The notes under the pieces: model-generated
Database searches by the model: none
What the model saw: only the letters and a program-made list of their open reading frames with translations
Told to the model about the DNA's origin: nothing
Virus record (IMG/VR): IMGVR_UViG_3300020118_000073
Location: 1 to 43,508 of that record
DNA from: a virus
Strand: one strand, 5' to 3'
DNA: 43,508 nt
Part shown: positions 6,553-43,218 of the stretch, piece by piece
Numbering within the stretch: the first letter of the stretch is position 1
Layout: the number at the start of each line of letters is the position of its first letter
Program-made: the position numbers and the translations under genes

Positions 6553-6974
6553 GGGTCCGTGCTCGCTGTCGCCTGCGTGGCCTCCTTCTCGTGTTCCTTG
6601 TTGCCGCGCTGGGCGCGAACGAGAAACATCCCGACTGGGTCAAGGAGTTGCAGATAGCCGTCTTCCATCAGGATGTCGCCAACGGCCTGGGGACTTTCCG
6701 GCGCACCCTTCTTACCGCGCAACATCCAGAAGATCGCGGTGGCCAACTCACTCATCTTGATTTCCGAAGCGTTTGGCGGGCGCTCCGCGACTTTAACGCC
6801 GGCGAGCAGCGCGCGCATGCCGAGCATGCGGGCTGGCTGGTCGGTGGCGGCCTCGATGTTTGCGATGATCTCGAATGTGGGCCGCACGGAGAACGTGCTG
6901 CCATTTAGCTTGATCTCGACTTCCTGGCGTGCGGATTCGACCTTCGACTTCGCGTCTGCAACAGCGTCAGTCAC
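6549..6974 (-). CDS. Tail assembly chaperone, first frame (GTA gp10-like)
   Basis: A 141-residue protein between major tail protein and tape measure, the place of tail chaperones that hold the tape measure before tube assembly. The core reads KLNGSTFSVRPTFEIIANIE followed by helical segments with KMSELATAIFWMLRG. GTG start at 6974 shares one base with the upstream TAG stop; a GGAG lies 9 bases upstream. It ends in a charged low-complexity tail (EHEKEATQATASTDP), a plausible flexible joint to the -1 frame extension. It resembles the gene-transfer-agent gp10 family; lambda gpG is the functional analogue. Confidence 0.8.
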   Translation of the reverse strand: MTDAVADAKSKVESARQEVEIKLNGSTFSVRPTFEIIANIEAATDQPARMLGMRALLAGVKVAERPPNASEIKMSELATAIFWMLRGKKGAPESPQAVGDILMEDGYLQLLDPVGMFLVRAQRGNKEHEKEATQATASTDP

Positions 6975-7417
6975 TAGCTGGCGCTCCAGATCACCGGACC
7001 GCTCGACTTCATGGTGATGTCGAAGGTTTCGGCCTCGGTATGGGTGCCCGCGCGCTTGAAGGTCGAGCAGGACCATGTGCCGGTGAACTTGTCGCCAGAG
7101 CCCGAGATGACCTCAGCCTCCAGGAACGTGCCGCCAGCAAGCGCCGACAGGAAGACACGACGAAGCGGACCGGTTGCGGACGCATCGAAAATGCCAGAGC
7201 CGCTGATGTCGACCGACTTGATGCCGCCGTCGGGTAGCATTTCCTGCCAGCCGTTCGATCCCTTGTTGGAGATGTCGACCGGGTTGCCGTTGATGGTGAC
7301 GTCGTTTGTGCGAAGGCCCGCCACGGTCTGGAAGGTCGTGGGGCTCGTGCCATCGCTGATTTTGAGAAGGAATAGCCTGCCTGGTTCTGCTTGAATGGAC
7401 GGCGTATTCGTACCCAT
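6974..7417 (-). CDS. Major tail (tube) protein
   Basis: A 147-residue protein in the position of the major tail protein, just before the chaperone pair and the tape measure. The sequence is typical of the TP901-1/GTA type: GLRTNDVTINGNPVDISNKG, a GIKSVDISGSGIF strand, and TGTWSCSTFKRAGTHTEAET with a WSAS end. It would stack as rings around the tape measure. The ATG is preceded by a strong AAGGAG six bases upstream, and a 91-base gap separates it from the sugar island, so it may have its own promoter. That would suit its high demand. Confidence 0.9.
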   Translation of the reverse strand: MGTNTPSIQAEPGRLFLLKISDGTSPTTFQTVAGLRTNDVTINGNPVDISNKGSNGWQEMLPDGGIKSVDISGSGIFDASATGPLRRVFLSALAGGTFLEAEVISGSGDKFTGTWSCSTFKRAGTHTEAETFDITMKSSGPVIWSAS

Positions 7418-7508: not shown

Positions 7509-8219
7509 TCAGCGCAGATACGATCGCCACTCATCGGCCAGATGGTCGTGTTCGTGGCCGGGCATGAGCGGAATGCCCATCGTGAAGTGCGCCGCTCTGG
7601 CGTCTGCGGTGATTTTGTCCACCCCGACCAAGTAATTCCAGCGCGGGTCGAGACCGCCGATTTGGTCATCGTCCAGCCAGCTGAACGCGTGCAGCCATTG
7701 CCCTGGCATCTTGTTGACGACGTGCGGCACCAGCCGCTGATTTGACGGGTGGCCAGCGTTCCACAAAATCAGGCTCGACCAGTTTTTACGGTAGTAGGGC
7801 TGCTGCGCCTGGCCGTCCATCTTCGTGCCAGAGGCATCAAGCGGGCCATGCCGCACGACGAAGACCGCTTTTGACGGGTCCATCTGCGAGAAAATGCGCA
7901 AGACGTCGTCTCGCCAGAGAAAGTCGCTGTCGCAGAACAGTGCCCAGCCGGAGTGCTGCATGAGGCTCGGGACAAGGAAACGGGTGAAAGAAAACGCTGT
8001 ACTAAAGGGCTTGCCGTCGCCCACGTCGACGCGCTGGTTTCCAGCCATGCGCCATTGCCGGTGGTAAAGCCCGATGTGACGCAATGCGGGCTCGGACAGG
8101 CGGTGGATCTGCAGAGGGATGCTGGCGTGCTTACGCATGCTGGCCTCGCAGACCTCCGTCGCGTCGGGTTCGCGCGCCTCGTGGCCGATGAAGACGACCT
8201 GCGGAATCATTTCGGCCAT
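7509..8219 (-). CDS. Glycosyltransferase-like protein with DxD motif
   Basis: A 236-residue protein with the layout of a small GT-A fold sugar transferase: an N-terminal IPQVVFIGHEA strand, a hydrophobic WALFCDSDFLW segment with DSD at residues 97-99 (the usual metal/nucleotide-sugar site), and a C-terminal HFTMGIPLMPGHEHDHLADEW rich in His. It probably transfers a sugar from a nucleotide sugar; donor and acceptor are unknown. It is the last gene of the sugar-modification island and overlaps the upstream FkbM gene by 13 bases. The fold is inferred from the motif, not proven; similar proteins in phages are often left unnamed. Confidence 0.65.
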   Translation of the reverse strand: MAEMIPQVVFIGHEAREPDATEVCEASMRKHASIPLQIHRLSEPALRHIGLYHRQWRMAGNQRVDVGDGKPFSTAFSFTRFLVPSLMQHSGWALFCDSDFLWRDDVLRIFSQMDPSKAVFVVRHGPLDASGTKMDGQAQQPYYRKNWSSLILWNAGHPSNQRLVPHVVNKMPGQWLHAFSWLDDDQIGGLDPRWNYLVGVDKITADARAAHFTMGIPLMPGHEHDHLADEWRSYLR

Positions 8220-8878
8220 CCGTAGAAATGATCAGAGCCCATCTGGCATCGGTAGTTGGCGCCGAGGCTTTCGAGATAGTCGCCCGCCTCTCTGGCCTCC
8301 AACCCATACCGGTGCGCCATGCGCAGCTTGACCTCGATCATCACCAGCGGCTTGCAGCGGGTGAGCGTCTCGCGCGCGCCGCGCAGCGCGAAGAGTTCGA
8401 AGCCCTCGACGTCGAGCTTGACGAAGTCGACGTGGCCCAGCTTGAAGCTATCCAGCGGGCGCACATTGACATCGCCAGCGGGATCCTCGCGCAGGTAGCG
8501 ACCGCCCGTGTTGCCGTTGTCGCTGTAGCGCTGATCTTCGCCCATGCCCATGAGCCCGTTCTTCTCTCCCAGCGCGAAGCGATGCAAATGGATGTGCGTG
8601 CGAAGATGAAGGTTTTCGCGGCGCCACTCTTTCATGTTTTCGAAGAGGCAGTCGTAGGTCGGCCGGCACGGTTCAAACGCGTGCACAGTGTCGAAAAGCT
8701 CCGCCATGCGCATCGTCCAGCTGCCGATGTGCGCACCGCCGTCGACCGCAACGCGGCGCTTCTTTCCGATCAGCGCCATGCCGAACTCGAGGTGGTCAAG
8801 TTGCCAGCCACCATCCTCGAGCGCTTTCAGTTGGATTTGTTCTTCGTCCGGGACCCAGTACTTGCCAGCCCGCTTCAT
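8207..8878 (-). CDS. FkbM-family SAM methyltransferase, second copy
   Basis: A 223-residue FkbM-type methyltransferase. The SAM-binding loop VAVDGGAHIGS is at residues 43-53, AFEP at 67-70, and the family hallmark VKLDVEGFELFALRGARET lies in the second half, followed by PLVMIEVK. FkbM proteins O-methylate sugars or related hydroxyl groups, which fits the neighbouring sugar transferases. ATG at 8878 overlaps the upstream stop by 4 bases (ATGA). A longer frame upstream is an antisense-type shadow over the neighbouring gene. It is a paralogue of the gene at 14142-14720 at the other end of the island. Confidence 0.85.
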   Translation of the reverse strand: MKRAGKYWVPDEEQIQLKALEDGGWQLDHLEFGMALIGKKRRVAVDGGAHIGSWTMRMAELFDTVHAFEPCRPTYDCLFENMKEWRRENLHLRTHIHLHRFALGEKNGLMGMGEDQRYSDNGNTGGRYLREDPAGDVNVRPLDSFKLGHVDFVKLDVEGFELFALRGARETLTRCKPLVMIEVKLRMAHRYGLEAREAGDYLESLGANYRCQMGSDHFYGWPK

Positions 8879-9654
8879 GACGTCCTCGCTTTTGCCATCG
8901 CCAATCTCGATTTCAGTTCGGGCGAATAGCCTAGCTTTTTTCTCAGGCCTTTCATGTGGTCCATGTACAGCGCCAGCGGCGAATCGCACCAAACGTGGCC
9001 CTTTCCTCCCGGCGTCAGATTGCGCGCGACGACGCCCGTGCATGCCAGATCGAACAGATAGCTGTCGTGCCACTCGCGCTCTTTGGCGAACATGCCCGAC
9101 GCGTAGGACCACGCCCAGGCTTTGATGACCGGCAGTGCCTGCGGCAGACGGAAGATCAGGAATCCACATTCGCTGTGCGCGCGCTCCCGGCCGAGAAACG
9201 CGCAGTCGGTTGGTCCGATCAGCGCCTCGAGAAACATCTTGGGCACGGGTTTCAGACACCGAACGTCGGCGTCAATCCACGCCATCACTCCCTGCTGGTG
9301 GTCCTGATTCGCGGCGTGCTGCACGGCGAAGACCTTGCGGCAGAACTTGGCTGCATCGGTGCGAAAGCTGTAGCCGTCAACGCGATCCTTCGATTTCCAC
9401 ACCGGCGTCTCGACTCTGCCCTGATAGAGCGGGTCGCTGCCGTAGCGCTTCATGAACAGCTGGAAGCTGACGACTTGGTCGAGTTGGCGCACTTCGATCC
9501 TGCGGCCGCAGACGCTGGCCGGCACAGGCATGTCGTGCTCGACGTACAGCACCAGGCCGACCTCTGCTGGCCAGAACGCGTCAAACGTTTCGATGAAGAC
9601 GTTGCCGTACTCGTGCAGCCCGTTGCGCGAAAACGATGTGACGACGCTGGTCAT
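8875..9654 (-). CDS. Glycosyltransferase-like protein, DAD motif
   Basis: A 259-residue protein with an N-terminal SVVTSFSRNGLHEYG segment, a middle GYSFRTDAAKFCRKVFAV helix and VMAWIDADVRCLKPVP, where DAD (128-130) looks like the DxD metal site of GT-A sugar transferases. Later HDSYLFDLAC and the SECGFLIFR strand are compatible with an acceptor region. ATG 9654 overlaps the SAM methyltransferase stop by 4 bases; its own stop overlaps the FkbM start by 4. Likely part of the same glycan pathway. Donor sugar and target cannot be read from sequence. Confidence 0.65.
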   Translation of the reverse strand: MTSVVTSFSRNGLHEYGNVFIETFDAFWPAEVGLVLYVEHDMPVPASVCGRRIEVRQLDQVVSFQLFMKRYGSDPLYQGRVETPVWKSKDRVDGYSFRTDAAKFCRKVFAVQHAANQDHQQGVMAWIDADVRCLKPVPKMFLEALIGPTDCAFLGRERAHSECGFLIFRLPQALPVIKAWAWSYASGMFAKEREWHDSYLFDLACTGVVARNLTPGGKGHVWCDSPLALYMDHMKGLRKKLGYSPELKSRLAMAKARTS

Positions 9655-10181
9655 TCGATGCGCAGCACGAGGTCGGCGCCGAAATGCATTCTTGCCGCCG
9701 CGAATTGATTGATCCAGAAGTCGGCTGGCATCTGCGTGACGTGGCAGTTCTCCCCATTCGGCAAGCTTTTCTTCGCCGCGTGCGTGGCCACGGTGACGAA
9801 CAGCGCCTTGTCGGCGAACCCGATCAGATCCGCGATCACGACGGGCACGTCCTCAACCGGAATGTGCTCCATGACATCGGTACACCACACAAGATCGAAA
9901 TGGCCCTTCGGGCGCTTTGCGAATTGCGGCACCGCGGGATCGAACTTGGCCACCGTGTAGCCCAGCTTTTCCTCGAGCCGATAGCCCTTGTCATGTTCGG
10001 GCATGTACTGGTTGCCCTTGCCGCAGCCGTAGTCGAGCGCGCTTTTGGCGCCGACGCGCTGCGACAGCGCGACCAGCTGATCGGCATACTTGAGACAGCC
10101 CCGACCGCTGAAGACTTTGCGCGTGGCGTGCAGTTCGATGCACTGGTTCAAATAGTACTGGCCTCGCTCAGACAAACTCAT
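9651..10181 (-). CDS. Class I SAM-dependent methyltransferase
   Basis: A 176-residue Rossmann methyltransferase: motif I SALDYGCGKGNQY (residues 47-59), an acidic end of strand 2 (VAKFDPAVPQF), and motif IV FDLVWCTDVMEHIPVEDV. The EHIP motif is typical of small-molecule and sugar methyltransferases, not DNA methylases, which carry DPPY/DPPW. It overlaps the preceding glycosyltransferase-like gene by 14 bases and the next by 4. Its job in the island is probably methylating a sugar or precursor (inference). Confidence 0.85.
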   Translation of the reverse strand: MSLSERGQYYLNQCIELHATRKVFSGRGCLKYADQLVALSQRVGAKSALDYGCGKGNQYMPEHDKGYRLEEKLGYTVAKFDPAVPQFAKRPKGHFDLVWCTDVMEHIPVEDVPVVIADLIGFADKALFVTVATHAAKKSLPNGENCHVTQMPADFWINQFAAARMHFGADLVLRIE

Positions 10182-11031
10182 CGGCGGTCTCCTTCGTTGT
10201 GCGCCACGCTAGGCCGCTGGCGATTTCTTGAGGACGCCATTGGCAATAGGCAAGATTTGCGAGCCACTGCTTACGGGTCGGAAGGTCGGCCCACAAGGGA
10301 TGCTCTATGTCAGCAATCGAATCAGAACAGAGGGGCGCTGCGACCGCGTTACCGAGCACAATGCACGGGACGCCAGCGAGAATGCTGTCGACGCTGGCGA
10401 TGCTCCCATACGTGACCGTGCACCATGCGTCGCCAAGGACCGACGAGACTGGCGTTTTCGATCCATGGTCGAAGCGCGCACCCTCGACTGGAACTGCGTA
10501 TTTCCACGATGGCTTGGGGCGATACGTGATTGGCCTGTCGGAAAAATCTCGGATGACGCCGATCAGATCACGCGTCCATTCGGTCGGTTCTGTTATCCGA
10601 TGCGTCAGATGAAACTTCGCACTTGAACCAAGGATGACGATGCGCTTGCCGAAATTCCTCTTCTCGGAGATTGGAACATTCATGAGCGCCAGCCGATCGT
10701 GCGGCCTTTGAATCCGCATCAAATACTCGGTCGGGTGGGTGCCATCAATGCAGATGCGCCACCATTCTGGCAGGCTCTTGTCGGCAAATGGCGCGCGCGA
10801 GCGCGTGTACCCTTTGTCAAAATACCACACGCGCTTCCCGGCTGCGCGATAGCCCCAGAGAATTTCGCGCTTAACGACGCCAATCAGGACTGCGCCATCA
10901 GCCTCTGGGCCATCATATTCCTCGGTTTTCTTAAGAATGATCTCGTCGCCGCATGCAGCAGCGCCCGAGATGATCGCAGGCGCCAGTGCGTCCTCGTAGC
11001 CCTTCGGCGCTTTGTAAAAAATGTACTTCAC
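10168..11031 (-). CDS. Glycosyltransferase-like protein, homologue C
   Basis: A 287-residue protein with a visible relative at 11564-12391 and a more distant one at 12388-13125. Shared blocks are DRPITYRPKPSW (DRPIIYRPKPSW in the neighbour), SVDSILAGVPCIV, and the end ANLAYCQWRPQEIASGLAW. The AGVP block after a Ser/Asn-Ala segment resembles the donor-binding C-terminal half of GT-B sugar transferases and of capsule-polysaccharide type proteins. GTG start at 11031 overlaps the endonuclease stop by 4 bases (GTGA). Function as a sugar transferase is inferred from this motif and the neighbours. Confidence 0.6.
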   Translation of the reverse strand: MKYIFYKAPKGYEDALAPAIISGAAACGDEIILKKTEEYDGPEADGAVLIGVVKREILWGYRAAGKRVWYFDKGYTRSRAPFADKSLPEWWRICIDGTHPTEYLMRIQRPHDRLALMNVPISEKRNFGKRIVILGSSAKFHLTHRITEPTEWTRDLIGVIRDFSDRPITYRPKPSWKYAVPVEGARFDHGSKTPVSSVLGDAWCTVTYGSIASVDSILAGVPCIVLGNAVAAPLCSDSIADIEHPLWADLPTRKQWLANLAYCQWRPQEIASGLAWRTTKETADEFV

Positions 11032-11567
11032 ACGACGTGCGCCCAGGTCTTGCCAGTAGACGCGGCGTATAGCGTTGATCTGCTAACCCCGTATCGGGAC
11101 GCGAGACCATTTCTGCTTCCGGTCCGCGAGACATGCCGGCGGATTGCGCGGACCTTTGCATCGCTCAGCTTTGCGAGATGTTGTTTTTGTCCCTTTGGAG
11201 AACGCCCGTGGGCTATTCGATCCTGCGAATTCTCCAGTGGCGTGCCCCATGTGAGGTTGGCCAGTTCGCAATTTTTTCTGACACCATCAAGATGTCTTGC
11301 TACATGGCCAGCAGGGCGAGGACCGACAAACGCCTCAAGAACCAGCTGATGGACCTTTCGAAGCTGGCGCTGCCGATCACGGCAAAGACCTACGCACTTG
11401 TAGCCGTCCACGATAACCCGTTTTCGTGGCCGGCCCTTGTATGCGACCTGGATGACTTTGCTTCTGATCTTGAACGTCGCAATGCGGTCTAAACTTCTTA
11501 CATTGCCTAGGTTGCTGACTTCGTAAAGACCTTCCCAACCAAAGACATCTTTCCAACGCTCAGTCAC
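11028..11567 (-). CDS. NUMOD4-HNH homing endonuclease
   Basis: A 179-residue free-standing homing endonuclease. It opens with the NUMOD4 DNA-contact motif (RWKDVFGWEGLYEVSNLG), then the HNH part (VHQLVLEAFVGPRP, RHLDGVRKNCELANLTWGT, ENSQDR), and ends with a helix-turn-helix-like region (ASRYGVSRSTLYAASTGKTW). The start is GTG 11567, overlapping the upstream stop as GTGA, and the stop overlaps the next GTG in the same way. It sits between two homologous glycosyltransferase-like genes. Such enzymes cut an allele lacking the gene and spread by repair; the domain order is clear, activity is not tested. Confidence 0.9.
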   Translation of the reverse strand: MTERWKDVFGWEGLYEVSNLGNVRSLDRIATFKIRSKVIQVAYKGRPRKRVIVDGYKCVGLCRDRQRQLRKVHQLVLEAFVGPRPAGHVARHLDGVRKNCELANLTWGTPLENSQDRIAHGRSPKGQKQHLAKLSDAKVRAIRRHVSRTGSRNGLASRYGVSRSTLYAASTGKTWAHVV

Positions 11568-12391
11568 AACACACCGGCCCGTTTCAGATGCTTCCACACG
11601 ATTCCCGCCCTCATCTCTGGCACGTTAAATTGCTGGTACGCAATATCGCACATCAGCTGGTCGCGCCCTGTCGGATAGCGCGGCGACTCGATCTCGCTCA
11701 GCGGCGTCGACAAGTTCTTGCACACGCCCTCGCTGGCTGAAATCGGCACGCCGGCCAGCAGCGCGTCGACGGCAGCGTTGCTGTGCAGCGTCACCAGTGC
11801 CCATGCGTTTTCAAGCGCCTCCATGATCGACTGGCTTGGCGGCGAGAAGATCGTGCCGGGAATAGGCTTGGCCTCGAGCCATGATGGTTTTGGCCGATAG
11901 ATGATCGGTCGATCGGTGTAGCGGCGCAGTTCGTTGATGGCGGCGATCTCCCACTGCTGCGGCCCGTAGCCGCGCGTGCGCGCCGACTTGCCCGACATGC
12001 CGGCCAGCACGACGTCGCGGCCCCAGCGCCGCCATGGCGCGGGCACGATGCCAAAATGGGCGAAGCGGTCGCTGGGCCAATGCCTGGCCATGAGCGCGTC
12101 CGGCTCGCGCCCGTTGACGCACACTTTGTGGAAGCCTTCCAGCGGCCTGCCCTCTGGCTTTCGGTTCCACCAGCCCAGATCGATGTAGACGAACGAGCGC
12201 CCTCTGGCTCGGTAGTTCTGGAATGTGGCCGGGTTGGCCCAGCCGTAGGCCACGCACACGTCCGAATCAGTCGGCGTGAAGTCGGGAGCCAGGATTGGCA
12301 CATCGCCACAGGCGGCCACGCCTTCGGCCATAGCGAGGGCGACATGACGGCTGCGCCGATTCGCTGGATCGAAATGGCAGGCGACCTTCAC
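11564..12391 (-). CDS. Glycosyltransferase-like protein, homologue B
   Basis: A 275-residue protein homologous to the 10168-11031 product (both carry DRPI.YRPKPSW, AVDALLAGVP and an IAYQQFNVPEMRAG-type end). A 407-codon frame exists, but the part upstream of 12391 overlaps the previous gene and reads as shadow; GTG at 12391 makes the usual GTGA overlap and begins MKVACHFDPANRRS, matching the start style of its homologues. The N-terminal half reads like a Rossmann domain (SDVCVAYGWANPATFQNY), the C-terminal half like a donor-binding domain. Sugar transfer is inferred. Confidence 0.6.
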   Translation of the reverse strand: MKVACHFDPANRRSRHVALAMAEGVAACGDVPILAPDFTPTDSDVCVAYGWANPATFQNYRARGRSFVYIDLGWWNRKPEGRPLEGFHKVCVNGREPDALMARHWPSDRFAHFGIVPAPWRRWGRDVVLAGMSGKSARTRGYGPQQWEIAAINELRRYTDRPIIYRPKPSWLEAKPIPGTIFSPPSQSIMEALENAWALVTLHSNAAVDALLAGVPISASEGVCKNLSTPLSEIESPRYPTGRDQLMCDIAYQQFNVPEMRAGIVWKHLKRAGVL

Positions 12392-13125
12392 CGGCGCAAC
12401 AATCTTGCGAAAGGCTCGCCTGAGCGTATCTCGTCCAAATTCCACTGCGCCCATGCCAGCCGAATCAGTTCTGGCTGGCGCTCGCCGCGAAAGATGGGAT
12501 CGCCAGGCTTGGACGCCATGGCCGACACCATGAGGTTCGGACCGTGCTGGATCACCGGCACGCCCGCCACCACAGCGTGGCTGGCCGCGTTGCTGGACCA
12601 GACGTGGCACACAGATGCCCCGGCGAGATCGGCCGCCAGCGGCCTTGTGGTGACCCTGGGACGGCGCACGATTTGGCGGTCGGCCGGGAAGCCCAAACCC
12701 ATGTGCCAATCGGGCGGGGCCGTGCGCTGGTCCTTGGGGTGACCGCGCTGGCCGATCACAAGCTCGTACGCGCCGCCGATCTTCCATGGCGATTCGTGCA
12801 CGCCGAACGACGCCCAGCGCTCAGCACCGCCGGCCGGGAACGTGCCGGTCCCGTTCCATCCGTCGAGAGCGATCTGGTAGTAGGGACGGTGCGCCATCGG
12901 CGACAGCCAGCCGTTCTCCATCACGATCACGGGCTTTTCAGCGGCGGCGAACAGGATCTGCAGTTGCTGTCGGTACGAGCCCATCCACGGCGACCACACT
13001 GCGAGAATGTCGGCCTCATGCTTCACTGTGGCGGGCTCGCACGTGTAGCCCAGCCTCGAGAGACCAGCGATCACCGCATGATAAGGATAGTCATCGAGCG
13101 GCGGGATCCCGATGCACGCTTTCAC
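12388..13125 (-). CDS. Glycosyltransferase-like protein, homologue A
   Basis: A 245-residue protein, the shortest of three homologues. The shared C-terminal pattern is SSNAASHAVVAGVPVIQHG, then PELIRLAWAQWNLDEIRSG; it lacks the YRPKPSW block but has RRPRVTTRPLAADL in its place. GTG start at 13125 overlaps the DUF6527-like stop by 4 bases. An N-terminal strand-helix unit (MKACIGIPPLDDYPYHAV) and VIVMENGWLSP suggest a nucleotide-binding fold. It probably belongs with the GT-B or capsule-type sugar transferases; the missing block may mean a different acceptor. Confidence 0.55.
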   Translation of the reverse strand: MKACIGIPPLDDYPYHAVIAGLSRLGYTCEPATVKHEADILAVWSPWMGSYRQQLQILFAAAEKPVIVMENGWLSPMAHRPYYQIALDGWNGTGTFPAGGAERWASFGVHESPWKIGGAYELVIGQRGHPKDQRTAPPDWHMGLGFPADRQIVRRPRVTTRPLAADLAGASVCHVWSSNAASHAVVAGVPVIQHGPNLMVSAMASKPGDPIFRGERQPELIRLAWAQWNLDEIRSGEPFARLLRR

Positions 13126-13472
13126 TTGATCTCGCCGTTTGTGATGTAGCCGTGCCAGCTATTCGTCCCGCCATCGATTGATGGCGTGATCGAGATGTTA
13201 TCGAATGTCGCTGCGCCAGCTTCGGGCGTGCAAGTCCATGCGACGTCCTCCCTGCAAAGCTGGGTCCAACGCTCGGCGTCTTCTCCAATCTCGGCCACGA
13301 CAATGTTGCATTGTTCTTGGCGGGGAAGCGCCTGGAAGAAGCACGCCATGCGATGCGGGGCGGGATTTGGTGTCCCGTCATGGCGCACGCGTTTGACTGG
13401 GCAAATGAACAGGATCCCGACGCGCACGCCGTCCCTCAACAGCCAGCGTGGATCAAGCTCGGAAAGTCGCAT
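13122..13472 (-). CDS. DUF6527-like protein, degenerate copy
   Basis: A 116-residue protein related to the gene at 15889-16203: both end in a pattern of SPSI or TPSI, then WHGY[IL]TNG. The intact copy has a CPCGCG cluster that could bind zinc; here the matching place reads FICPVKRVRHDG, so most cysteines are gone. ATG 13472 follows the DUF115-like stop directly, and the stop overlaps the next GTG by 4 bases. Role unknown. Its place inside the sugar island suggests a duplicate recruited there, or carried in with it. Confidence 0.6.
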   Translation of the reverse strand: MRLSELDPRWLLRDGVRVGILFICPVKRVRHDGTPNPAPHRMACFFQALPRQEQCNIVVAEIGEDAERWTQLCREDVAWTCTPEAGAATFDNISITPSIDGGTNSWHGYITNGEIK

Positions 13473-13473
13473 G

Positions 13474-14145
13474 CTAGAGCCCTGCGCTGGTCGGATCGAC
13501 TTCTGCCAGTTGCCCTTGCGAAGATGTTTCTTGGACAAGGGCCACCCCGTCGGCAATCGAACAGCGTGGCCAAACCTTCAGCGCGCTATCCTGACTTGCG
13601 TTTATCACGCGCACTCCGCGCTTGGCCAACGGTTTCGCCAGGCTTGCGAACAGCGGCAGCATGTGGCGCGTCATCGTGTCTTCGATGTGAACCGTGCCGT
13701 GCCCGCCATGGAAGTGCGTCTTTCCATCCGGCCCGTGGCGCATGTCGACGCCGAACAGCACAATGCATTTTGCACCCAAATGTACTGCAAGATGCATCCC
13801 GGCAAACGCTGAGTTGTTGCCGTGGCGAATGCAGTGCGGATCGGGGTCGAAGCCGCTGTGGCCGGTGAAGGTGTACTCGTGCACCCAGCCAGGCAGTTCG
13901 TCCTTCTGATAGCCAAGATTGCCGGTGGCCTTGCTGAAGGCCGCGTGCGCCTCGAGCGCCTCGCGATGCTTGCGGAAGAACAGCGCGTCGGACCACCACA
14001 GCGCAGATGCACGCGGTACGAATTCATAGGCGCGGTTGAGCGCGATCACGTTGGCGCCGTCCAGCTGCGCGAAGTCGAAGCCATCCAGCGACGTGCCGCC
14101 GCCGACGATGGCGACAGCCTGCCCGTTGAAGATTGGTGGGATCAT
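13474..14145 (-). CDS. DUF115-like phage protein (putative sugar/nucleotide-binding)
   Basis: A 223-residue protein with AVAIVGGGTSLDGFDFAQL at the N-terminus, then VIALNRAYEFVPRASALWWSD and later KCIVLFGVDMRHGPDGKTHF. This GGG.S pattern followed by an NRA..F.P.A segment is frequent in phage proteins related to DUF115/MptE-like and sialyltransferase-like folds, thought to bind a nucleotide or nucleotide-sugar. ATG 14145 overlaps the FkbM stop by 4 bases. Given the neighbours, action on a sugar is the best guess, but no catalytic residue can be named. Confidence 0.55.
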   Translation of the reverse strand: MIPPIFNGQAVAIVGGGTSLDGFDFAQLDGANVIALNRAYEFVPRASALWWSDALFFRKHREALEAHAAFSKATGNLGYQKDELPGWVHEYTFTGHSGFDPDPHCIRHGNNSAFAGMHLAVHLGAKCIVLFGVDMRHGPDGKTHFHGGHGTVHIEDTMTRHMLPLFASLAKPLAKRGVRVINASQDSALKVWPRCSIADGVALVQETSSQGQLAEVDPTSAGL

Positions 14146-14720
14146 CTCGCGAATACGAAGTCTGGCCGCGCGGCGTGCACCTGGCTGTAGCGCATCTTTG
14201 ACAGCAGCCGACGCACGGATCCGACAGGGTGGCCGAAGCGTGTCTCCAATCCCTTGATCTCAACGATGAGGACGGGCCGGAACTTGTCGATCGTCTTCCG
14301 CGCCCCCTTGATGGCTTCGAACTCGGCGCCTTCGACATCCAACTTTATGAGCCCACAGGACAGAAGGTTGAGGTTATCGATCCCCCAAGCCTCGAGCACG
14401 CCGTTGTCGTCGGTCTGAACATAGTGCGCCGCGCTATGCTTGCTTTTGGACTCAACCATTTTGGCGCGCCGCGTTCGGTCAAGGACGGCCATCTCATAGA
14501 GTTCGACATTGCGCTGCTCACGCAAATTCTCTGATGCTCGGACGAAATTGAAATGCGATGGCTCGAAGGCCAGAACGCGCTTGAAGCATTTCGCCATGGC
14601 CAGCGCCCAATGGCCTTCGTACGCACCGCAGTCCAGAGCGACGCCCCAGTCCTTGATCAGCCCAGAGCCCAGCGTCCAGTGCAGCGTGGCGATCTGCGCC
14701 CTAAGTCTATCTTCGGTCAC
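14142..14720 (-). CDS. FkbM-family SAM methyltransferase, first copy
   Basis: A 192-residue FkbM-type methyltransferase: motif I VALDCGAYEGHW (residues 27-38), AFEPS at 51-55, and the hallmark IKLDVEGAEFEAIKGARKT followed by PVLIVEIKG. Predicted reaction is SAM-dependent O-methylation, most often of sugars in this family. GTG at 14720 makes a GTGA overlap with the upstream 88-residue gene. It opens the 7.2-kb sugar island and is a paralogue of 8207-8878; the two share the DVEG block and the layout but differ widely elsewhere, so duplication is not recent. Confidence 0.85.
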   Translation of the reverse strand: MTEDRLRAQIATLHWTLGSGLIKDWGVALDCGAYEGHWALAMAKCFKRVLAFEPSHFNFVRASENLREQRNVELYEMAVLDRTRRAKMVESKSKHSAAHYVQTDDNGVLEAWGIDNLNLLSCGLIKLDVEGAEFEAIKGARKTIDKFRPVLIVEIKGLETRFGHPVGSVRRLLSKMRYSQVHAARPDFVFAR

Positions 14721-14983
14721 GCCGGTCGCCCGCTGGTGATGCGCAGCATGCCGGTTAAGAGGTTCACCATCAGTTCGGTCACGCCGACCGTGCCCATCAC
14801 CATCGCCGAAGCTGGGAGGTCGCCGCTGGCGTCGGGAAAGATGGCTTCATAAAGCTTACCGTTCTTGTCACTGATGGTGACAGTAAACGGCCCGGCTGGC
14901 AGATGCGCTGGATCGTCCATGTGCACGAGCGCGACCTGGTGCATGGTCTTGCGTTTTGAGTTGAGGTCGATCGGATCGCTCAC
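14717..14983 (-). CDS. Hypothetical small protein after the tail terminator
   Basis: An 88-residue protein of unknown family: VALVHMDDPAHLPAGPFTVT, then ISDKNGKLYEAIFPDASG and a hydrophobic C-terminus (TELMVNLLTGMLRI). GTG start at 14983 overlaps the upstream stop by 4 bases; the stop overlaps the first FkbM gene likewise. It lies exactly at the border between neck/tail genes and the sugar island. No motif was recognised. Confidence 0.6.
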   Translation of the reverse strand: MSDPIDLNSKRKTMHQVALVHMDDPAHLPAGPFTVTISDKNGKLYEAIFPDASGDLPASAMVMGTVGVTELMVNLLTGMLRITSGRPA

Positions 14984-15423
14984 GTCGGGCGATTCCGCAT
15001 GCTGCGGAAGTTCCAGGCGAACTTGATGCGCCGGCGATCGTCAATCCCCATGCTCAGCGGCGCCGACTGTTTCGAATAGAAATAGACAAAGTTCGGATCG
15101 ATGTCCGGCTCCTGCGCATGCAACGCGAGGAAGATATCCTGCACTTTATCGCGCGCGGCGCGATAGTCGTCTGGCTTGGAGCGCACCACGATCTGCACGT
15201 CGGGGTAGTCCATCATGAAGCCTTCCTCGGCTGGACGGCCGGGACTGTCGTAAATGCAGATAGCGCGGTCCGCGACGGTCTTGGTCGTAGCTGGATCGGA
15301 GTCCGGCATCGACCATTTGTAGACCATCCAATCGGCCGCAGAGTTCGTGTTCTGGCCAAGGCCTGCCTGGACTATTGCCAGCTGCACGGCATCGATGGTG
15401 TTGACGCCCGGGGAAACGCTCAT
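14980..15423 (-). CDS. Tail terminator / minor capsid-type protein
   Basis: A 147-residue protein in the normal tail-terminator place, after the HK97 gp10-like neck protein. Features are an N-terminal helix (NTIDAVQLAIVQAGLG), ICIYDSPGRPAEEGFMMDYP (a strand-loop typical of Minor_capsid_3/tail terminator proteins), VQIVVRSKPDDYRAARDKVQ and a final KFAWNFRSMRNRP. It would cap the tail tube before joining to the head. ATG 15423 overlaps the upstream stop as ATGA. Assignment rests on order and these motifs. Confidence 0.7.
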   Translation of the reverse strand: MSVSPGVNTIDAVQLAIVQAGLGQNTNSAADWMVYKWSMPDSDPATTKTVADRAICIYDSPGRPAEEGFMMDYPDVQIVVRSKPDDYRAARDKVQDIFLALHAQEPDIDPNFVYFYSKQSAPLSMGIDDRRRIKFAWNFRSMRNRPT

Positions 15424-15887
15424 GGAGTCTTCACCTCTTCGGGCGACGGACCAAGGTCGCCGGCCGCGATCTTGGTCTTCAAGTTCTCTGCGATGCGCGC
15501 GCCCATACCATGTGTCGCCTGATTGAACGGCAATTCGAGATATTTCGCGCCGCCGACCGGATGGTGCGCCTCGAGGTTCTCATGCACGAACAGCGCATAG
15601 CCATCGGTGCTCTGGCCCGTCTTCGGGTTGATCTGCGCCGCGGGGCCGCCGTAGCCAAGCTCGACCGTGACCTTGTTGCCATCACGCTCGGGCGGCTTGA
15701 CATAGCCGCTGCCCTTGAGCGCGGCAGTGTCAACTGGCACCAGCGGACCGCTGGCCGTCATAATACCCTGCGCCTCGAGATAGAGTTCGCGTCCCAAAAG
15801 AAAGAACGCGCGATCTCCCACCTTGCTGAGAGTCTGGCTGATGCTGCGCCCGCTGGCAGTTCTGTAGGTCTTGAACGCCGGTGCCAA
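15420..15887 (-). CDS. HK97 gp10-like neck / tail-completion protein
   Basis: A 155-residue protein of the HK97 gp10-like group: basic N-terminal helix, PVDTAALKGSGYVKPP, ELGYGGPAAQI, YALFVHENLEAHHPVGGAKYLELPF and a C-terminal helix, the standard layout with the GYA.FVHE....H..G..KYLE block. It acts at head-tail joining. The start is TTG at 15887, supported by GGAGG six or seven bases upstream, just after the previous TAG. The stop overlaps the tail terminator ATG by 4 bases. Confidence 0.8.
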   Translation of the reverse strand: MAPAFKTYRTASGRSISQTLSKVGDRAFFLLGRELYLEAQGIMTASGPLVPVDTAALKGSGYVKPPERDGNKVTVELGYGGPAAQINPKTGQSTDGYALFVHENLEAHHPVGGAKYLELPFNQATHGMGARIAENLKTKIAAGDLGPSPEEVKTP

Positions 15888-15888
15888 T

Positions 15889-16203
15889 CTATCCCTCCGT
15901 CCAGACGCCGTTCGTAAGATACCCGTGCCAGTGATACCCCTTCTCGTCTTTCGGATTGATGCCGATCGAAGGGCTCAGCGTCACCTTAGGCCACTCTCCG
16001 CTAGCGCTCCACTCCGGACCACCAGCATGCTTCGTCTCCGTACCTGCAAACCACATCGCGCTACGCATGCCGCAACCGCACGGACAGGAGTGCTGGATGC
16101 CGATCTTCTCGTCGTTGACGATCATGAACGCATATGCGCCAGGCTTGGCGCCTTCGTCGGAATTGATATCGGAGACTTCAAAAGCGATGGCGTTGCGCGG
16201 CAT
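15889..16203 (-). CDS. DUF6527-like protein with CPCGCG cluster
   Basis: A 104-residue protein: PRNAIAFEVSDINSDE, IQHSCPCGCGMRSAMWFAG with a four-Cys cluster suited to a metal, and VTLSPSIGINPKDEKG followed by WHGYLTNGVW. This matches DUF6527 proteins, frequent in phages and of unknown role. ATG 16203 sits one base into the stop of the upstream 87-residue gene. It lies among neck genes, so it may be a virion or assembly accessory, but it may equally be a passenger. A degenerate paralogue is at 13122-13472. Confidence 0.65.
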   Translation of the reverse strand: MPRNAIAFEVSDINSDEGAKPGAYAFMIVNDEKIGIQHSCPCGCGMRSAMWFAGTETKHAGGPEWSASGEWPKVTLSPSIGINPKDEKGYHWHGYLTNGVWTEG

Positions 16204-16466
16204 CACACTTTCTCCCGACCATGTCGTTCCTGCCAAGCGCGCGCCCACGCGTCCTTGGGATCAAGCTCGATGCGCACGTCGCCGCGCATCTTCTCCGTCA
16301 TGATGTTTTCGCGCGCCGCATCCAGCATCGGCTTGCCTTGCTCGTCCGTCCTGTAGCGCACGATATAGCGCTCTTTCTCATTCGCTTCGACCACATAGGT
16401 GCGCTCCTCGCCATCCAGAAAGACCTTGGCGCCGTGCGAACCAATTTCTCCAATCTTCAGATGCAT
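16203..16466 (-). CDS. Hypothetical small basic protein in neck region
   Basis: An 87-residue protein, charged, with beta-type N-terminus (MHLKIGEIGSHGAKVFLDG, ERTYVVEANEKERYIVRY) and a helical C-terminus (DPKDAWARAWQERHGREKV). It lies between head closure and DUF6527-like genes in the neck block. No known family was recognised. The codons look like those of neighbours and the start ATG is close after the previous stop. Confidence 0.6.
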   Translation of the reverse strand: MHLKIGEIGSHGAKVFLDGEERTYVVEANEKERYIVRYRTDEQGKPMLDAARENIMTEKMRGDVRIELDPKDAWARAWQERHGREKV

Positions 16467-16955: not shown

Positions 16956-17752
16956 GAGCCGTCCGACGTGTTCCACGCCTCCTCGCTGGTGTTGTTCTTG
17001 CCCGCCTTGTTGTCAAACTGGCCCTGGCCGCGGAAGGGCGGCTTCACGCGATCGGTGTTGGAATTGACCTTGAGGCGGTCGGCCCAGCTGATGCCGCCAG
17101 AATAGGGCTGGACGCCGAACGTGTTGCCTCGCGCCTCCAGATCTGCAGCCAGCGTGGCATAGGCCTTGGCGATGTCGCCCCAGCTGATCTGCAGATCTCC
17201 GACGCGCTTGTTCGGCTTGCGGGCGTACTTGGCCTGCAGATTGCGCGCGCACTGCGCCGCCGCCAGCATCGGATTGGTAAACTGCGTAAGCACATAGTCG
17301 ATCTCGGCGTCCATGATCTGGGCGTTGTCGACGTCGGTGTCGTTGATCCAGAAGCGCACGGCATCGCGCTCATTGATGCTGGGGTCGCCGCTATAGGTCG
17401 CGATCGGTTTGATGCCGACCTGCCAGCGTCCGATCTCGACGGTCGTTTCGTTGCCGCTGCTGTCGGTAAGGACCGCGCGATGAATGTAGAACCCTACAAG
17501 CGCCGCGCTTTCTCCAGTCATGATGTTCGGCTGGAAGATCCCGCCCGTGCCGCCATTGATCTTGGAAACGCCGCCTAGCGTGAACGCCTTGCTGATGACC
17601 GGAGCCGAATCGGCATCGCGTTGCGCGGACCAGACGATCTCGACCATGCTGGAGATGTCGATCGGCGTGCCAGAGCCGTCGCGCGTTGTGAACTGCGGAT
17701 AGGCCGCGTCGCCAGCGTAGCTTTCGAAGTTCTGTTTGACCGCAGCGCTCAT
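16952..17752 (-). CDS. Two-domain protein: BppU-like N-part fused to head-tail connector
   Basis: A 266-residue protein. Residues 1-120 are beta-rich (FTTRDGSGTPIDISSMVEIV, AALVGFYIHRAVLTDSSG, VEIGRWQVGI), like the N-terminal Ig-type domain of BppU-like proteins. Residues about 120-210 are the helical connector type (RDAVRFWINDTDVDNAQIMD, AAQCARNLQAKYAR, VGDLQISWGDIAKAYATLA), which binds the portal from below. The C-terminus is Asn/Gly-rich. ATG 17752 overlaps the fibre gene stop by 4 bases. The connector call is firm; the N-domain call is by general look. Confidence 0.75.
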   Translation of the reverse strand: MSAAVKQNFESYAGDAAYPQFTTRDGSGTPIDISSMVEIVWSAQRDADSAPVISKAFTLGGVSKINGGTGGIFQPNIMTGESAALVGFYIHRAVLTDSSGNETTVEIGRWQVGIKPIATYSGDPSINERDAVRFWINDTDVDNAQIMDAEIDYVLTQFTNPMLAAAQCARNLQAKYARKPNKRVGDLQISWGDIAKAYATLAADLEARGNTFGVQPYSGGISWADRLKVNSNTDRVKPPFRGQGQFDNKAGKNNTSEEAWNTSDGS

Positions 17753-20238
17753 TCGTCCACCTCACCCTTCAGGTCGGCTTGCGACTTTGTAGCATCAAGC
17801 GTGGCCTCCGTCTTGGTGGCGCTAAGGTCCGCCTGCGCCTTGGTCGCGGCAAGGTTCGCTTCGTTTTTTTGCGCCAGAAGCACAGCCTGCGAATCGATAG
17901 CGTTAAGGCGAGGCCGATTGAAGAGGTTTCGGCCTGGCCTGGAAATCGGAATGCCCCAAGCGGCAGCAACTCGCGCGAGATGCTCGACGACGAAGTTGAC
18001 CCCGGCCGAGATCAGACCGCCGAAGTGGCTGACTGGCAGCGTGCTATCGGACCGCACGGCCGCAACGTGGGAAGTTTCGACGCCAGAATGCGAGCGCAGA
18101 TCGCCGGTGCGCGATATTTGCGGTCCTTGATCGCCTTGCGCCCTGGCGGCGTGCGCAACGGGGTCGGCGCGATCGCCCGCGACCGTCGCTCCATGCGCGA
18201 CCTGGGCGAGCGTGTCGCCGATCGACTGCGTGACCGTGCCGTCATGAGAAACGGGGACCGTCTCGTCGCCATTGACCGCGGCGCGATGCGCGACCGGAAT
18301 TGTCCGGTCCTCCTGAAGTCCGACTAGGTGAGCTGCTGGGTCGGAGCCGTCTTCACGCACGCCGGCCAGGTGCTCAGCCTGGACGAGCCGGTTTGATTGC
18401 AGATTGCCGGAATGCGAGGTCTGAACGCCTTCGGACGACTGTGCGCCGGCGAGGTGCTCGACTGGGGTGCTGGGACCGCCTTGCTCTCCCGCCAAGTGCT
18501 CGGCAGGGACGCCGCTGCCACCTTGCGCACCAGCGCCATGGGCCAAATTCAACAGCGTGTCGCCCACCGCCTGCGCTGCACTGGCGCCATGCGCGACCGG
18601 GATTGTCTCGTCGCCATTGATGTTCGCCAGGTGCTCGGTCGGGACGTTGGCGTCACCGCGTTCGCCGGCGCCGTGCGCCACTGGGTCGCGCTGGTCGGAT
18701 GCTTCGCCCGCAAGATGCTCGGTCGGCGTGGTGCCTGTTGAGGCTTCGCCGGCCAGGTGCGCGACCGGATCGACGCCATCGCTGCGCTCGCTGGCGAGGT
18801 GCTCGGCGTAAACAGTCTCGCCCGACACTTCATTCGCGGCGTGCGAGGTCTGTACGGATTGCGCCGACTGCTCGCCCGCGCCATGAGCCACCGGCACGGT
18901 CGGCCCAGATTGCTCTGCGACCAAGTGCTCGGCGTAAACGGTGCTGGTCGATACTTCGTTGGCCGCGTGAGACGTTGGGTCCGTGCCGTCGAAGCGCTCG
19001 CCGACCAGGTGCTCGGTCGGGATTATTGGCGTCGATTGTTCGCCTGCGAGGTGCTCGGTGTTGACCGCTGGCGAGGAAACCTCATTGGCCGCATGAGAGG
19101 TCGGCACGGATTCCGACGAAACTTCGTTCGCGGCATGCGCCACCGGCACCAAAGGCGAAGATTGCTCTCCTGCAAGATGCTCAGCATAAATCTGCGGAGT
19201 CGATTGCTCGCCGACGAGGTGCTCGCCCGAGACGATCGGCGACGACACTTCGTTCGCTCTGTGTGCTGCCGGGACTAGCGGCGAAGACTGCTCTCCTGCG
19301 CCGTGGGCGACTGGATCGGTTTGGCTCGTTTGCTCGGCGACCAAGTGCTCGGCGTAGGTTTGCGGGGTGCTCTGGACTGCGGCGCCGTGCGCGACCGGAA
19401 TCGGTTTGCCAGCGACCTGGCTCGCGTTGCTGACCACGAAGGGCCAGTCTGACGTCAGCGCGAAAGAACCAAGGTTGACCCAAGTTTTGCTCGCCTGGAC
19501 CGGATAAAACATGTCCCAGGGATGCTGGTACAGATCCTGAGCATCATTGTCGCTTAATAGATAGCCCTGATAGAACCGCGCGAGATGAAGATTGATTGTT
19601 GGTGTTGCGAAGTTCCCGCTCGTATCTGCGCAGAGAAAGAAAACATTTGTCTTCGTCGGGTTACTCATTAACTGAGACTGGTCGTAAATCTTTACGCCGT
19701 TCAGATAAATCTTAGTTCCGATGTTCCCTTGCTTAGACAGAACGATGTGTGACGTCACGCCCGCATTCAGCAGTCCAGAGCCGATCTGAATGATAAAGGG
19801 AGAGCCAGTGTCCCACGGAACCCAATTCAAGTCCGTCAGGCTTGAGGCTACTTCGTAGTCGTAGCCGCCGTCAGCTGCATTGCCACCAAAGTCGAACAGA
19901 CGATCGAATTGTGCAGCACCAGCACCGGTAGCCGTAAATAGAAATTCAGAACTGAATGCAAGATTGCCAATGCCGGGACTGCCCCAATCAACTGATGCCG
20001 GATAATAAAATCCGCTTGTCCCGTTGGCAGCGATGATGCCTTTTCCGGGTCTGTTTATGTTGATGTTGGGGCGAGTGCCGGCGATGCTGGCAGCCGTCCC
20101 AGAAATCATTTCTATAAGGCCGTTGCCGTAGTGGGCGCTGACGGCGCGCGTCACGCGCTGACCGAGCCTGTGGCTTCTGTTTATGGCAGCTGGGAACTGC
20201 GGCTGAATCGCGTTTCTGACCGGAAGTATCAGCGGCAT
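17749..20238 (-). CDS. 829-residue repeat fibre with LamG-like head
   Basis: Residues 1-275 resemble a concanavalin/LamG jelly-roll (NLAFSSEFLFTATGAG, GTKIYLNGVKIYDQSQ, INLHLARFYQGYLLSD followed by NDAQDLYQHPW). Residues about 278-758 are some 34 copies of a 14-residue unit with a near-invariant His at position 7, such as PIIPTEHLVGERFD or ESVPTSHAANEVSS. Two units are lengthened by a GDTL insertion. The last 70 residues include 7-residue-type repeats (ATKAQADLSATKTEATLDAT), likely coiled coil. Regular spacing suggests a long beta-structured fibre, perhaps with metal held by the His rows. It lies between beta-rich virion genes and the connector, so it could be a head fibre as well as a tail fibre. 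Confidence 0.8.
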   Translation of the reverse strand: MPLILPVRNAIQPQFPAAINRSHRLGQRVTRAVSAHYGNGLIEMISGTAASIAGTRPNININRPGKGIIAANGTSGFYYPASVDWGSPGIGNLAFSSEFLFTATGAGAAQFDRLFDFGGNAADGGYDYEVASSLTDLNWVPWDTGSPFIIQIGSGLLNAGVTSHIVLSKQGNIGTKIYLNGVKIYDQSQLMSNPTKTNVFFLCADTSGNFATPTINLHLARFYQGYLLSDNDAQDLYQHPWDMFYPVQASKTWVNLGSFALTSDWPFVVSNASQVAGKPIPVAHGAAVQSTPQTYAEHLVAEQTSQTDPVAHGAGEQSSPLVPAAHRANEVSSPIVSGEHLVGEQSTPQIYAEHLAGEQSSPLVPVAHAANEVSSESVPTSHAANEVSSPAVNTEHLAGEQSTPIIPTEHLVGERFDGTDPTSHAANEVSTSTVYAEHLVAEQSGPTVPVAHGAGEQSAQSVQTSHAANEVSGETVYAEHLASERSDGVDPVAHLAGEASTGTTPTEHLAGEASDQRDPVAHGAGERGDANVPTEHLANINGDETIPVAHGASAAQAVGDTLLNLAHGAGAQGGSGVPAEHLAGEQGGPSTPVEHLAGAQSSEGVQTSHSGNLQSNRLVQAEHLAGVREDGSDPAAHLVGLQEDRTIPVAHRAAVNGDETVPVSHDGTVTQSIGDTLAQVAHGATVAGDRADPVAHAARAQGDQGPQISRTGDLRSHSGVETSHVAAVRSDSTLPVSHFGGLISAGVNFVVEHLARVAAAWGIPISRPGRNLFNRPRLNAIDSQAVLLAQKNEANLAATKAQADLSATKTEATLDATKSQADLKGEVDE
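17965..19407 (-). repeat. Tandem 42-base coding repeats (about 34 units)
   Basis: Diverged 42-base units encode the 14-residue His-centred repeat of the fibre gene. Commonest residues are x-x-V-P-V-A-H-L-A-G-E-Q-S-S with E/S before the His in many units. Units divide into EHL, AHG and SHAANEV subtypes that recur in no strict order. Two 18-residue units containing VGDTLLNLAHG and IGDTLAQVAHG are the exceptions. Confidence 0.85.
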
Positions 20239-35139: not shown

Positions 35140-36420
35140 TCACTTTTTGCGCTTCTTCGCCAGCGACTCGAGCGTGGCGCCATCCGCGCGGGTGGCCACG
35201 TGGCTGGTGAATTTTTCCCACCGCTCGATCGTCAGTTGCGCGTACGCCGGATCAATTTCGATGCCGATGCAGCGCCGCGATTCCATCTCGCAGCTGACGA
35301 GAGTGGTGCCAGAACCGAGGAACGGATCATAAATCCAATCGCCTTTTTTGCTGTTGTTGATGATAGGGCGGCGCATGCATTCGATCGGCTTCTGCGTGCT
35401 GTGGCCGGTTTCTGACTTCGCATGAGTGATCGACCAGAGCGTCGTCTGCGATCGACCGCCGTGCCAGTTTCCTTTTTTGCCTTTGCGCACGGCGTACCAA
35501 CATGGCTCGTGCTGCCAGTGATAGTCGCCTCGGCTGATGATGAGCCGGTCCTTCGCCCAGATGATTTGCGAGCGCATCGCAAAGCCAACCGACTCAAGTG
35601 ATTCCTGCACGGTCCTGGCATGCCGACCCGCATGCCAACAGTAGGCAATGTCGCCCTCAAACAGCGCCCAGGCGAGGCGCCAATCTGCGCTGGTGTCCCC
35701 CGAAACCTTTCCTATGGCGCGAGCGCCATAGGCTTTGCCGTTGGCCCGGTCTGCTTCATTCCGCCAGTTCGCGTCGTATTCCACCCCGTAAGGTGGGTCA
35801 GTGACCATCAGATTGGGCCTGAATTCGCCCACAGCGCGCGACACAGCCGCCTTGTCGGTGCAGTCGCCCACCAGCAGCCTGTGGTCGCCCAGCAGCCACA
35901 ATTCGCCCGATTTTACGATTGGCTTGGCTGGAAGGGGCGGCGTCTCCTCGGCCTTGGCGTTAAGCTCGGGCTGCGTGAAGCCCACGATGCCGAGTGCGCC
36001 AAGATCGGGCACGGTAAACCCGGCAACGCTCAGATCGAACGACGCAGTCTGCAGCGCCGCTATTTCGACTCGTAACGCGTCCTCGTTCCATACGCCGCGC
36101 TCGCTGAGCTTGTTGTCGGCAATGCGATAGGCGCGCTTCTGTGCCTCGCTCCAGCCGCGCGCGATAATGGTGGGCGCCTCGGAGAACGCTGGCTCCAGTG
36201 CTGCAGCAAGGGCGCGGCCGTGACCGGCAATAATTTCACCATCAGGATCTGCGAGAATTGGAATGGTCCAGCCGAATTCATTCATTGCGGCGCGGATTGC
36301 AACGACCTGATCGGGCGGGTGCGTCTTGGGGTTGTTCGCGAATGGCTTGAACCAGGCGATCGGCATGCGAATGATTTGCTCCATGCCAATGTCCTTGATC
36401 GTGACCTTGCGCGCACTCAC
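35140..36420 (-). CDS. ParB-like domain fused to DNA N4/N6 methyltransferase
   Basis: A 426-residue protein. Residues 13-110 are ParB/Srx-like (RMPIAWFKPFANNPKTHPPD, DGEIIAGHGRALAA, AYRIADNKLSERGVW). Residues about 165-410 are a DNA amino-methylase with TDPPYGVEYD (207-216) before DPFLGSGTTL (365-374), the order of beta-class enzymes. Such fusions are common in phages and act as orphan methylases. GTG 36420 overlaps the upstream 56-residue gene as GTGA; the shadow ORFs nearby are not genes. No cognate endonuclease is present. Confidence 0.9.
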   Translation of the reverse strand: MSARKVTIKDIGMEQIIRMPIAWFKPFANNPKTHPPDQVVAIRAAMNEFGWTIPILADPDGEIIAGHGRALAAALEPAFSEAPTIIARGWSEAQKRAYRIADNKLSERGVWNEDALRVEIAALQTASFDLSVAGFTVPDLGALGIVGFTQPELNAKAEETPPLPAKPIVKSGELWLLGDHRLLVGDCTDKAAVSRAVGEFRPNLMVTDPPYGVEYDANWRNEADRANGKAYGARAIGKVSGDTSADWRLAWALFEGDIAYCWHAGRHARTVQESLESVGFAMRSQIIWAKDRLIISRGDYHWQHEPCWYAVRKGKKGNWHGGRSQTTLWSITHAKSETGHSTQKPIECMRRPIINNSKKGDWIYDPFLGSGTTLVSCEMESRRCIGIEIDPAYAQLTIERWEKFTSHVATRADGATLESLAKKRKK

Positions 36421-42554: not shown

Positions 42555-43218
42555 TGGCTTCGAATCGATCGATCTCATTACCCCATGACGCCCAGTTCGG
42601 CGCGCGGCTGCGAGCGAAAAGTTCGCAGTAGGGACCGTCGAACATGGTCTCGATTCTGGTGCGCGCTTCGTCTGGCTTGCGGCTGTGTTCGCGGCGTGGC
42701 TGGCGGATCGTCCCACCCGGCCACCATTCAATGAAATCGCGCATCGATCGGCTGTTTGTCTCGGTCACATGGCCAAAGAAATCGACAGGCTTACGCAGGC
42801 GCGGGGTGCCGCGGGTCAGCAGCAGACATGGCTCGAGGTTCTTGCGTGTGCCGTAGCCGGGACCGAAGGCAAATTTACCGGTCTGGGCGTTGTACTTAAT
42901 CCACTCCCAAGCGACAGAGGAGTAGATGAGTCCCCAAGCCGAAATAACCGTCGTCCACTGCGGCATCAGAGGCCATGTGAACCAGCAGAAAACGGCGCAA
43001 TCCTTGGCCATAAGCAGCGCCAGCGGCAGCTTGGCGATGTCCTCGATCGGCATGCAGGGATAGTGGTTTATGGCGTTCTTTTCTTCGCCGGACTCGCTGA
43101 AATTTGCGTATAGCCACGGCGGGTCGATATGCAGCACGCGGAAGCCGCTCGATGGCCGTAAGCGCGTCCATTCGTGAGACACCCTTTCGAGATCCAGCCT
43201 AATAATTCTCTGGCTCAT
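42544..43218 (-). CDS. MT-A70-type DNA adenine methyltransferase
   Basis: A 224-residue MT-A70 family protein: VLHIDPPWLYANFSESG with DPPW (32-35), WFTWPLMPQWTTVISAWGLI, SVAWEWIKYN, GTRKNLEPCLLLTRG and REHSRKPDEARTRIETMF with the SRKP block. Such phage enzymes methylate adenine N6, usually as orphan methylases against host restriction. ATG 43218 overlaps the first small gene by 4 bases; the longer frame to 43359 is shadow. No restriction enzyme nearby. Confidence 0.9.
   Translation of the reverse strand: MSQRIIRLDLERVSHEWTRLRPSSGFRVLHIDPPWLYANFSESGEEKNAINHYPCMPIEDIAKLPLALLMAKDCAVFCWFTWPLMPQWTTVISAWGLIYSSVAWEWIKYNAQTGKFAFGPGYGTRKNLEPCLLLTRGTPRLRKPVDFFGHVTETNSRSMRDFIEWWPGGTIRQPRREHSRKPDEARTRIETMFDGPYCELFARSRAPNWASWGNEIDRFEANGD

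Follow-up and report, generated by a model that had tools for sequence, protein, structure and literature searches.

A cluster of sugar-modification genes was analyzed in the virus record IMGVR_UViG_3300020118_000073. The record, classed as a virus by IMG/VR, is 43,508 bases long and is called the window here. Eleven open genes, A to K, lie at 7509-14720 on the minus strand, between the gene for the tail terminator and that for the tail-tube protein (Table 1). Eight of these (B, D, E, G, H, I, J, and K) are the core set and probably form a glycosylation cassette for the virion, in particular its tail; this reading is given a probability of roughly 60%. The cassette would be of the kind carried by the cluster O mycobacteriophage Corndog, built from unrelated enzymes.

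Almost all of the eleven genes are coupled by 4-nt stop/start overlaps, which confirms the overlapping genes reported for this interval in a preliminary description of the DNA. Through this coupling, the cassette is linked with the tail operon on the terminator side. The tube gene follows 91 nt after the cassette and has its own AAGGAG ribosome-binding site. Promoter-like and terminator-like sites show no excess over a shuffled background. Nine of the eleven genes are sugar-enzyme-like and encode five predicted glycosyltransferases (D, E, G, I, and K), one DUF115/sialyltransferase-like protein, and three methyltransferases, of which two are FkbM. The preliminary description had listed the same enzymes, with D, E, G, I, and K as "transferase-like" and with an HNH enzyme, and family matches, folds, and motifs bear it out.

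D, E, and G are paralogs of one another with 25-34% identity and, like I, have no confident match in family searches. An AlphaFold2 model of E was built from a 46-sequence alignment, and its best Foldseek matches are KpsC and WbbB (E 7e-9, TM about 0.55, probability 1.00). Profile searches agree weakly (KpsC at E 0.0012, range E 0.001-0.03). The KpsC/WbbB fold is predicted for E by this model and for D and G by homology to E. KpsC and WbbB are retaining beta-Kdo (3-deoxy-D-manno-octulosonic acid) transferases, but D, E, and G lack their nucleophile Asp (KpsC D160) and HP motif, and the corresponding segments read AGMSGKS / GSSAKFH / GQRGHPK and RPKPSW / RPRV. Some cassette relatives (L157:7242-8123 and L169) retain both features. 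D, E, and G were rejected as Kdo transferases because the catalytic Asp is missing. The nine-sequence D/E/G alignment is too diverse for use in scans.

I is a predicted GT-A glycosyltransferase. The best Foldseek matches of its model are GT6 enzymes (E about 1e-7), and W-x-D-x-D is invariant in its family (alignment A6). It resembles the GT6 alpha-1,3-galactosyltransferases in fold and in the invariant DxD, but is only 8-12% identical to GT6 structures, and a profile search against solved structures gave no match. Since none of 116 pattern matches in bacterial and archaeal contigs was confirmed, I appears to be largely viral; loci retrieved through K do contain weaker I-like genes. The K family has an invariant DxD and a conserved C-terminal HFT (alignment A8), and K resembles WbbM (E 0.002) and GT8 enzymes (E 0.014) in the PDB. 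The GT-A fold applies to I only, and K is assigned by its DxD and similarity. Because KpsC/WbbB- and GT6-like folds and DxD motifs were found, the fold searches keep the five transferase-like proteins among the sugar enzymes, by fold for E and I, by homology for D and G, and by motif for K. The phage-encoded glycan pathway proposed at the outset gains support from these folds and motifs.

FkbM enzymes carry out O-methylation in other pathways. A and J belong to this type and, at 59.3 and 59.7 bits, exceed the curated PF05050 cut-off of 22.7 bits. A is present in L006 with the order swapped and is not seen in L004. H is a methyltransferase dependent on S-adenosylmethionine (SAM) and also matches phrog_24759 (E 5e-20). 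The family of B, phrog_4603, is annotated as "alpha-2,3-sialyltransferase", and B, compared with the GT42/DUF115 (Maf) transferases, has weak matches to CstII in the PDB (E 0.4-0.9). For PF01973 (MptE-like), B scores below the cut-off and its homolog in L239 above it. In L004, L006, L157, L158, and L239, B is among the first genes of the slot.

Loci numbered with an L were collected through cassette or tube searches, so they do not give an unbiased count of the arrangements. Among relatives with terminator and tube on one contig, the gap between the two genes is bimodal, with 16-290 nt in 18 relatives vs. 6.1-7.6 kb in five phages. The 18 short gaps agree with the earlier statement that the two genes are normally neighbors. 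At least five other metagenomic phages have the cassette at this position. L004, L006, L157, and L158 carry B, D/E/G-type genes, I, J, and K between terminator and tube (H in three of the four), at identities of roughly 30-60%, and in L159 and L002 the part nearest the tube is seen. Gene order is retained across large protein divergence. Distances measured on K, J, and I are correlated with those measured on the tube, at r 0.77, 0.49, and 0.49 (reached in 37 of 5040, 10 of 5040, and 67 of 720 permutations), a relationship of modest strength among few taxa.

The GC content at third codon positions (GC3) is 0.55 in the HNH gene F vs. 0.65-0.80 in the other island genes. Apart from F and, less so, G (0.66), the island has the GC3 of the structural genes. 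Recent insertion was rejected on this composition and on the conserved synteny, and the cassette is old in this phage group. What had been presented as an unusual inserted island is instead standard in the group, with normal composition outside the HNH gene. A near-DNA search among named phages gave no match, and a gp10-like scan turned up no phages beyond the known ones.

The slot holds exchangeable sugar cassettes, because L083/L082, whose tube is 56% identical to that of the window, carry a different one that ends directly at the tube gene. The L083 cassette has five genes: FkbM, a SAM methyltransferase, a DUF115-like gene, a GT2, and another glycosyltransferase. This replacement, the HNH gene within the island, and the varying cassette composition among phages would fit mobile cargo at a permissive site, perhaps spread by a homing endonuclease and unrelated to tail biology. 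Such an origin is improbable given that the HNH gene is missing from the L006, L157, L158, L244, and L239 cassettes, that GC3 follows the structural genes, and that gene order persists despite protein divergence.

Related cassettes also precede tube genes in other backgrounds. Some assignments there, e.g., terminase, portal, and LysR in metagenome-assembled genome (MAG) and prophage loci, were made by eye from translations, and not all were profile-tested. A headless, tail-only (tailocin-like) chromosomal element lies at the same chromosomal site in two MAG contigs, L239 (3759-16672), binned as alphaproteobacterial, and L245, binned as Anaerolineae, with DNA 90-95% identical. Its order is terminator (phrog_4204), B, D, E, methyltransferase, GT9, K, and tube (PF06199), followed by tail assembly chaperone, tape measure, distal tail, hub-like, and fiber proteins. 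No head genes were seen in the element. What appear to be host metabolic genes lie to one side of it, and the opposite side has a probable LysR-type regulator. L255, a phage in a deltaproteobacterial MAG, has FkbM, K, and GT9 ahead of the tube, with GT9 directly adjoining it. The Mu-like prophage of Bradyrhizobium sp. BRP22 (L244) carries B, K, two glycosyltransferases, and FkbM between the sheath (phrog_165) and a tube of another family than that of the window (PF10618).

Since tube-adjacent placement recurs in different tail types, the tail is indicated as the target, and the tail-only elements argue against the capsid or DNA as a necessary acceptor. Glycosylation of phage DNA, in which the transferases would modify hypermodified bases against restriction, was rejected on these elements, which carry the cassette without head genes, and on the scanned window proteins, among which no base-hypermodification enzyme was recognized. 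FkbM enzymes and a location in the tail operon also fit it poorly. Links between phage glycosyltransferases and DNA hypermodification have been described (PMC9599517; PMC12619734), and related sets occur in the T4-like phages L166 and Mosig, yet this explanation is very improbable.

In the proposed mechanism, the cassette would be expressed late, together with the tail operon. Several active glycosyltransferases would build a short glycan in the infected cell from host nucleotide-activated sugars, and the methyltransferases would cap or tailor it. As tail subunits are produced, they would receive this glycan, the tube being the most plausible acceptor among them. No sugar-donor-synthesis gene was recognized in the window. 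A narrower version, which is possible but doubtful, is a dedicated and conserved tail-tube module, exchangeable as a whole at the tube gene, that would coat the tubes of siphoviruses, Mu-like myoviruses, and headless bacterial elements in an antigenic or shielding role. The virion target favored in the preliminary description is supported for the tail, by repeated placement at different tube families and in headless elements, but not for the tube as the acceptor.

Several observations weigh against tail glycosylation. Related sets lie between terminase and portal in L179 and L238, and before terminase in the Mesorhizobium prophage L250 and in MW202713, which carries a podovirus annotation. In L166 and the Pelagibacter phage Mosig, they are located apart from virion genes. 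Alphaproteobacterial chromosomes commonly carry K homologs, which in at least one case (L242) adjoin other glycosyltransferases. No obvious Ser/Thr-rich tail is seen in the tubes of phages with the cassette, and the absence of the KpsC nucleophile and HP motif from D, E, and G counts in the same direction. The tube is not a universal acceptor, since related sets adjoin terminase or portal or lie outside virion genes. Those beside terminase or portal may serve other acceptors. A further related cassette stands before portal/capsid-type genes in L258.

The main rival is modification of the host surface. The enzymes would act on host lipopolysaccharide (LPS) or capsule during infection and prevent re-adsorption to debris or superinfection by rivals. 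In headless elements, they would shield the producer from its own particle. K and D/E/G resemble surface-polysaccharide enzymes, and pelagiphage glycosyltransferase groups have been assigned to LPS modification (PMC9599517). Tailocin sensitivity is reportedly influenced by O-antigen/LPS (PMC9213528). This rival owes its standing to the K relatives on bacterial chromosomes and to the control of sensitivity to phage tail-like particles by surface polysaccharide. It is nonetheless unlikely. The cassette lies inside the tail operon and repeatedly adjoins the tube gene in different tails, and no flippase or polymerase gene was recognized in the island. No integrase was found in the records of this phage group, which may be incomplete, so lysogenic conversion is not indicated.

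Glycosylation of phage-particle proteins has been described for a few mycobacteriophages. The glycans are on capsid and tail-tube C-termini, as reported by Freeman et al. 2023 (cited in PMC12619734). In cluster O mycobacteriophages, the virion operon has an O-methyltransferase and glycosyltransferases between portal and protease, and capsid peptides were under-represented (PMC4351075). The comparison with this cluster was run with Firecracker and Dylan. Both cluster O and the window have overlapping methyltransferase and glycosyltransferase genes within a virion structural operon, but the former has four genes at portal-protease and the latter eight core genes at terminator-tube. Firecracker gp33-gp36 (Corndog gp35-38) gave no profile match to the window proteins, with a best blastp E of 0.002 (K/gp34). 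By these comparisons, the window cassette shares the Corndog-type arrangement, but its proteins are not clearly related to the Corndog-type ones.

In Caulobacter phage CcrColossus, genes resembling B, D, E, K, and H (gp126-131) form a same-strand cluster that immediately follows tail genes. Unlike the window, CcrColossus is a large phage with the cluster between tail-protein and lysis genes, where tube adjacency is not seen; I and J were not detected, and a GT9 gene is present. What sets the window cassette apart is a large, conserved enzyme set, its position between terminator and tube, cassette exchange at that position, and occurrence in headless tail elements. Should the tail reading be correct, virion glycosylation would extend to a new group of phages, whose hosts are mainly Gram-negative and probably alphaproteobacterial. 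The tail would then be the decorated part, and genome context could be used to find other sugar-coated particles. In addition, the KpsC-like and GT6-like enzymes of the cassette represent unstudied families.

C and F are passengers because they are absent from most relatives; C has no homolog in the fetched loci except in the same phage. Both had been placed in the glycan pathway and were rejected as members on this absence. F is a free-standing HNH homing-type endonuclease by its NUMOD4 (8e-13) and HNH_3 (2e-12) domains and its sporadic presence. C scores under the PF20137 cut-off. It had been called a degenerate DUF6527, and the CPCGCG cluster of its paralog at 15889-16248 is indeed gone, but C matches phrog_34484 almost full length and is not simply a broken gene. 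One tail operon holds both of these DUF6527-type genes. The 88-aa orphan next to the terminator has a homolog only in the same phage among the fetched loci.

Table 1. Genes of the terminator-tube interval in the window and their flanks.
Feature	Coordinates	Strand	Length (aa)	Evidence
Tail terminator, one flank of the slot	14980..15423	-		PF12691 E 1.9e-9
Orphan gene between terminator and cassette	14717..14983	-	88	No confident family
A, FkbM-type O-methyltransferase	14142..14720	-	192	PF05050 E 6.8e-16
B, DUF115/CstII-like putative glycosyltransferase, core	13474..14145	-	223	phrog_4603 E 1e-29
C, DUF6527-like, passenger	13122..13472	-	116	phrog_34484 E 2e-24
D, predicted KpsC-like glycosyltransferase, core	12388..13125	-	245	25% identity to E; alignments A2/A5
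E, predicted KpsC-like glycosyltransferase, core	11564..12391	-	275	AlphaFold2 pLDDT 95; Foldseek KpsC/WbbB
F, NUMOD4-HNH homing-type endonuclease, passenger	11028..11567	-	179	PF07463/PF13392
G, predicted KpsC-like glycosyltransferase, core	10168..11031	-	287	34% identity to E over 269 aa
H, SAM-dependent methyltransferase, core	9651..10181	-	176	PF13489 (Methyltransf_23) E 6e-8, above cut-off
I, predicted GT-A glycosyltransferase, core, mainly viral	8875..9654	-	259	AlphaFold2 pLDDT 92.5
J, FkbM-type O-methyltransferase, core	8207..8878	-	223	PF05050 E 5e-16
K, GT8/GT24-like glycosyltransferase, core	7509..8210	-	233	phrog_28018 E 2e-61
Major tail (tube) protein, other flank	6974..7417	-		PF06199 E 5.9e-24

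Elsewhere in the window, 17749-20238 encodes an 829-aa virion-operon protein with many short His/Ser/Thr-rich repeats and no family match. It is a possible alternative acceptor, and no counterpart was found in other cassette-bearing phages. An N6/N4 DNA methylase and an MT-A70 methyltransferase are encoded at 35140-36420 and 42544-43359, so the phage DNA may be methylated.

Further genes were observed in the related loci. L157 has two extra PF06199 tube-domain proteins (11851-14088 and 14146-15567) beside its ordinary tube gene, with long C-terminal BNR/sortilin-like repeat regions. At the place of the 88-aa orphan, between terminator and cassette, L004 (3068-3286) encodes an Acb2_Tad1 hairpin-domain protein (PF24729, above cut-off), whose family includes phage anti-defense members. 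Cytidylyltransferase-like genes in related cassettes (L166:15674-16423 and L179:10599-11024) are possible sugar-activation steps, and one of them is fused to a mannose-6-phosphate-isomerase-type cupin domain. A radical SAM/SPASM protein (L238:6698-7639) and a weakly sulfotransferase-like protein (L263:5824-6573) are also encoded within related cassettes.

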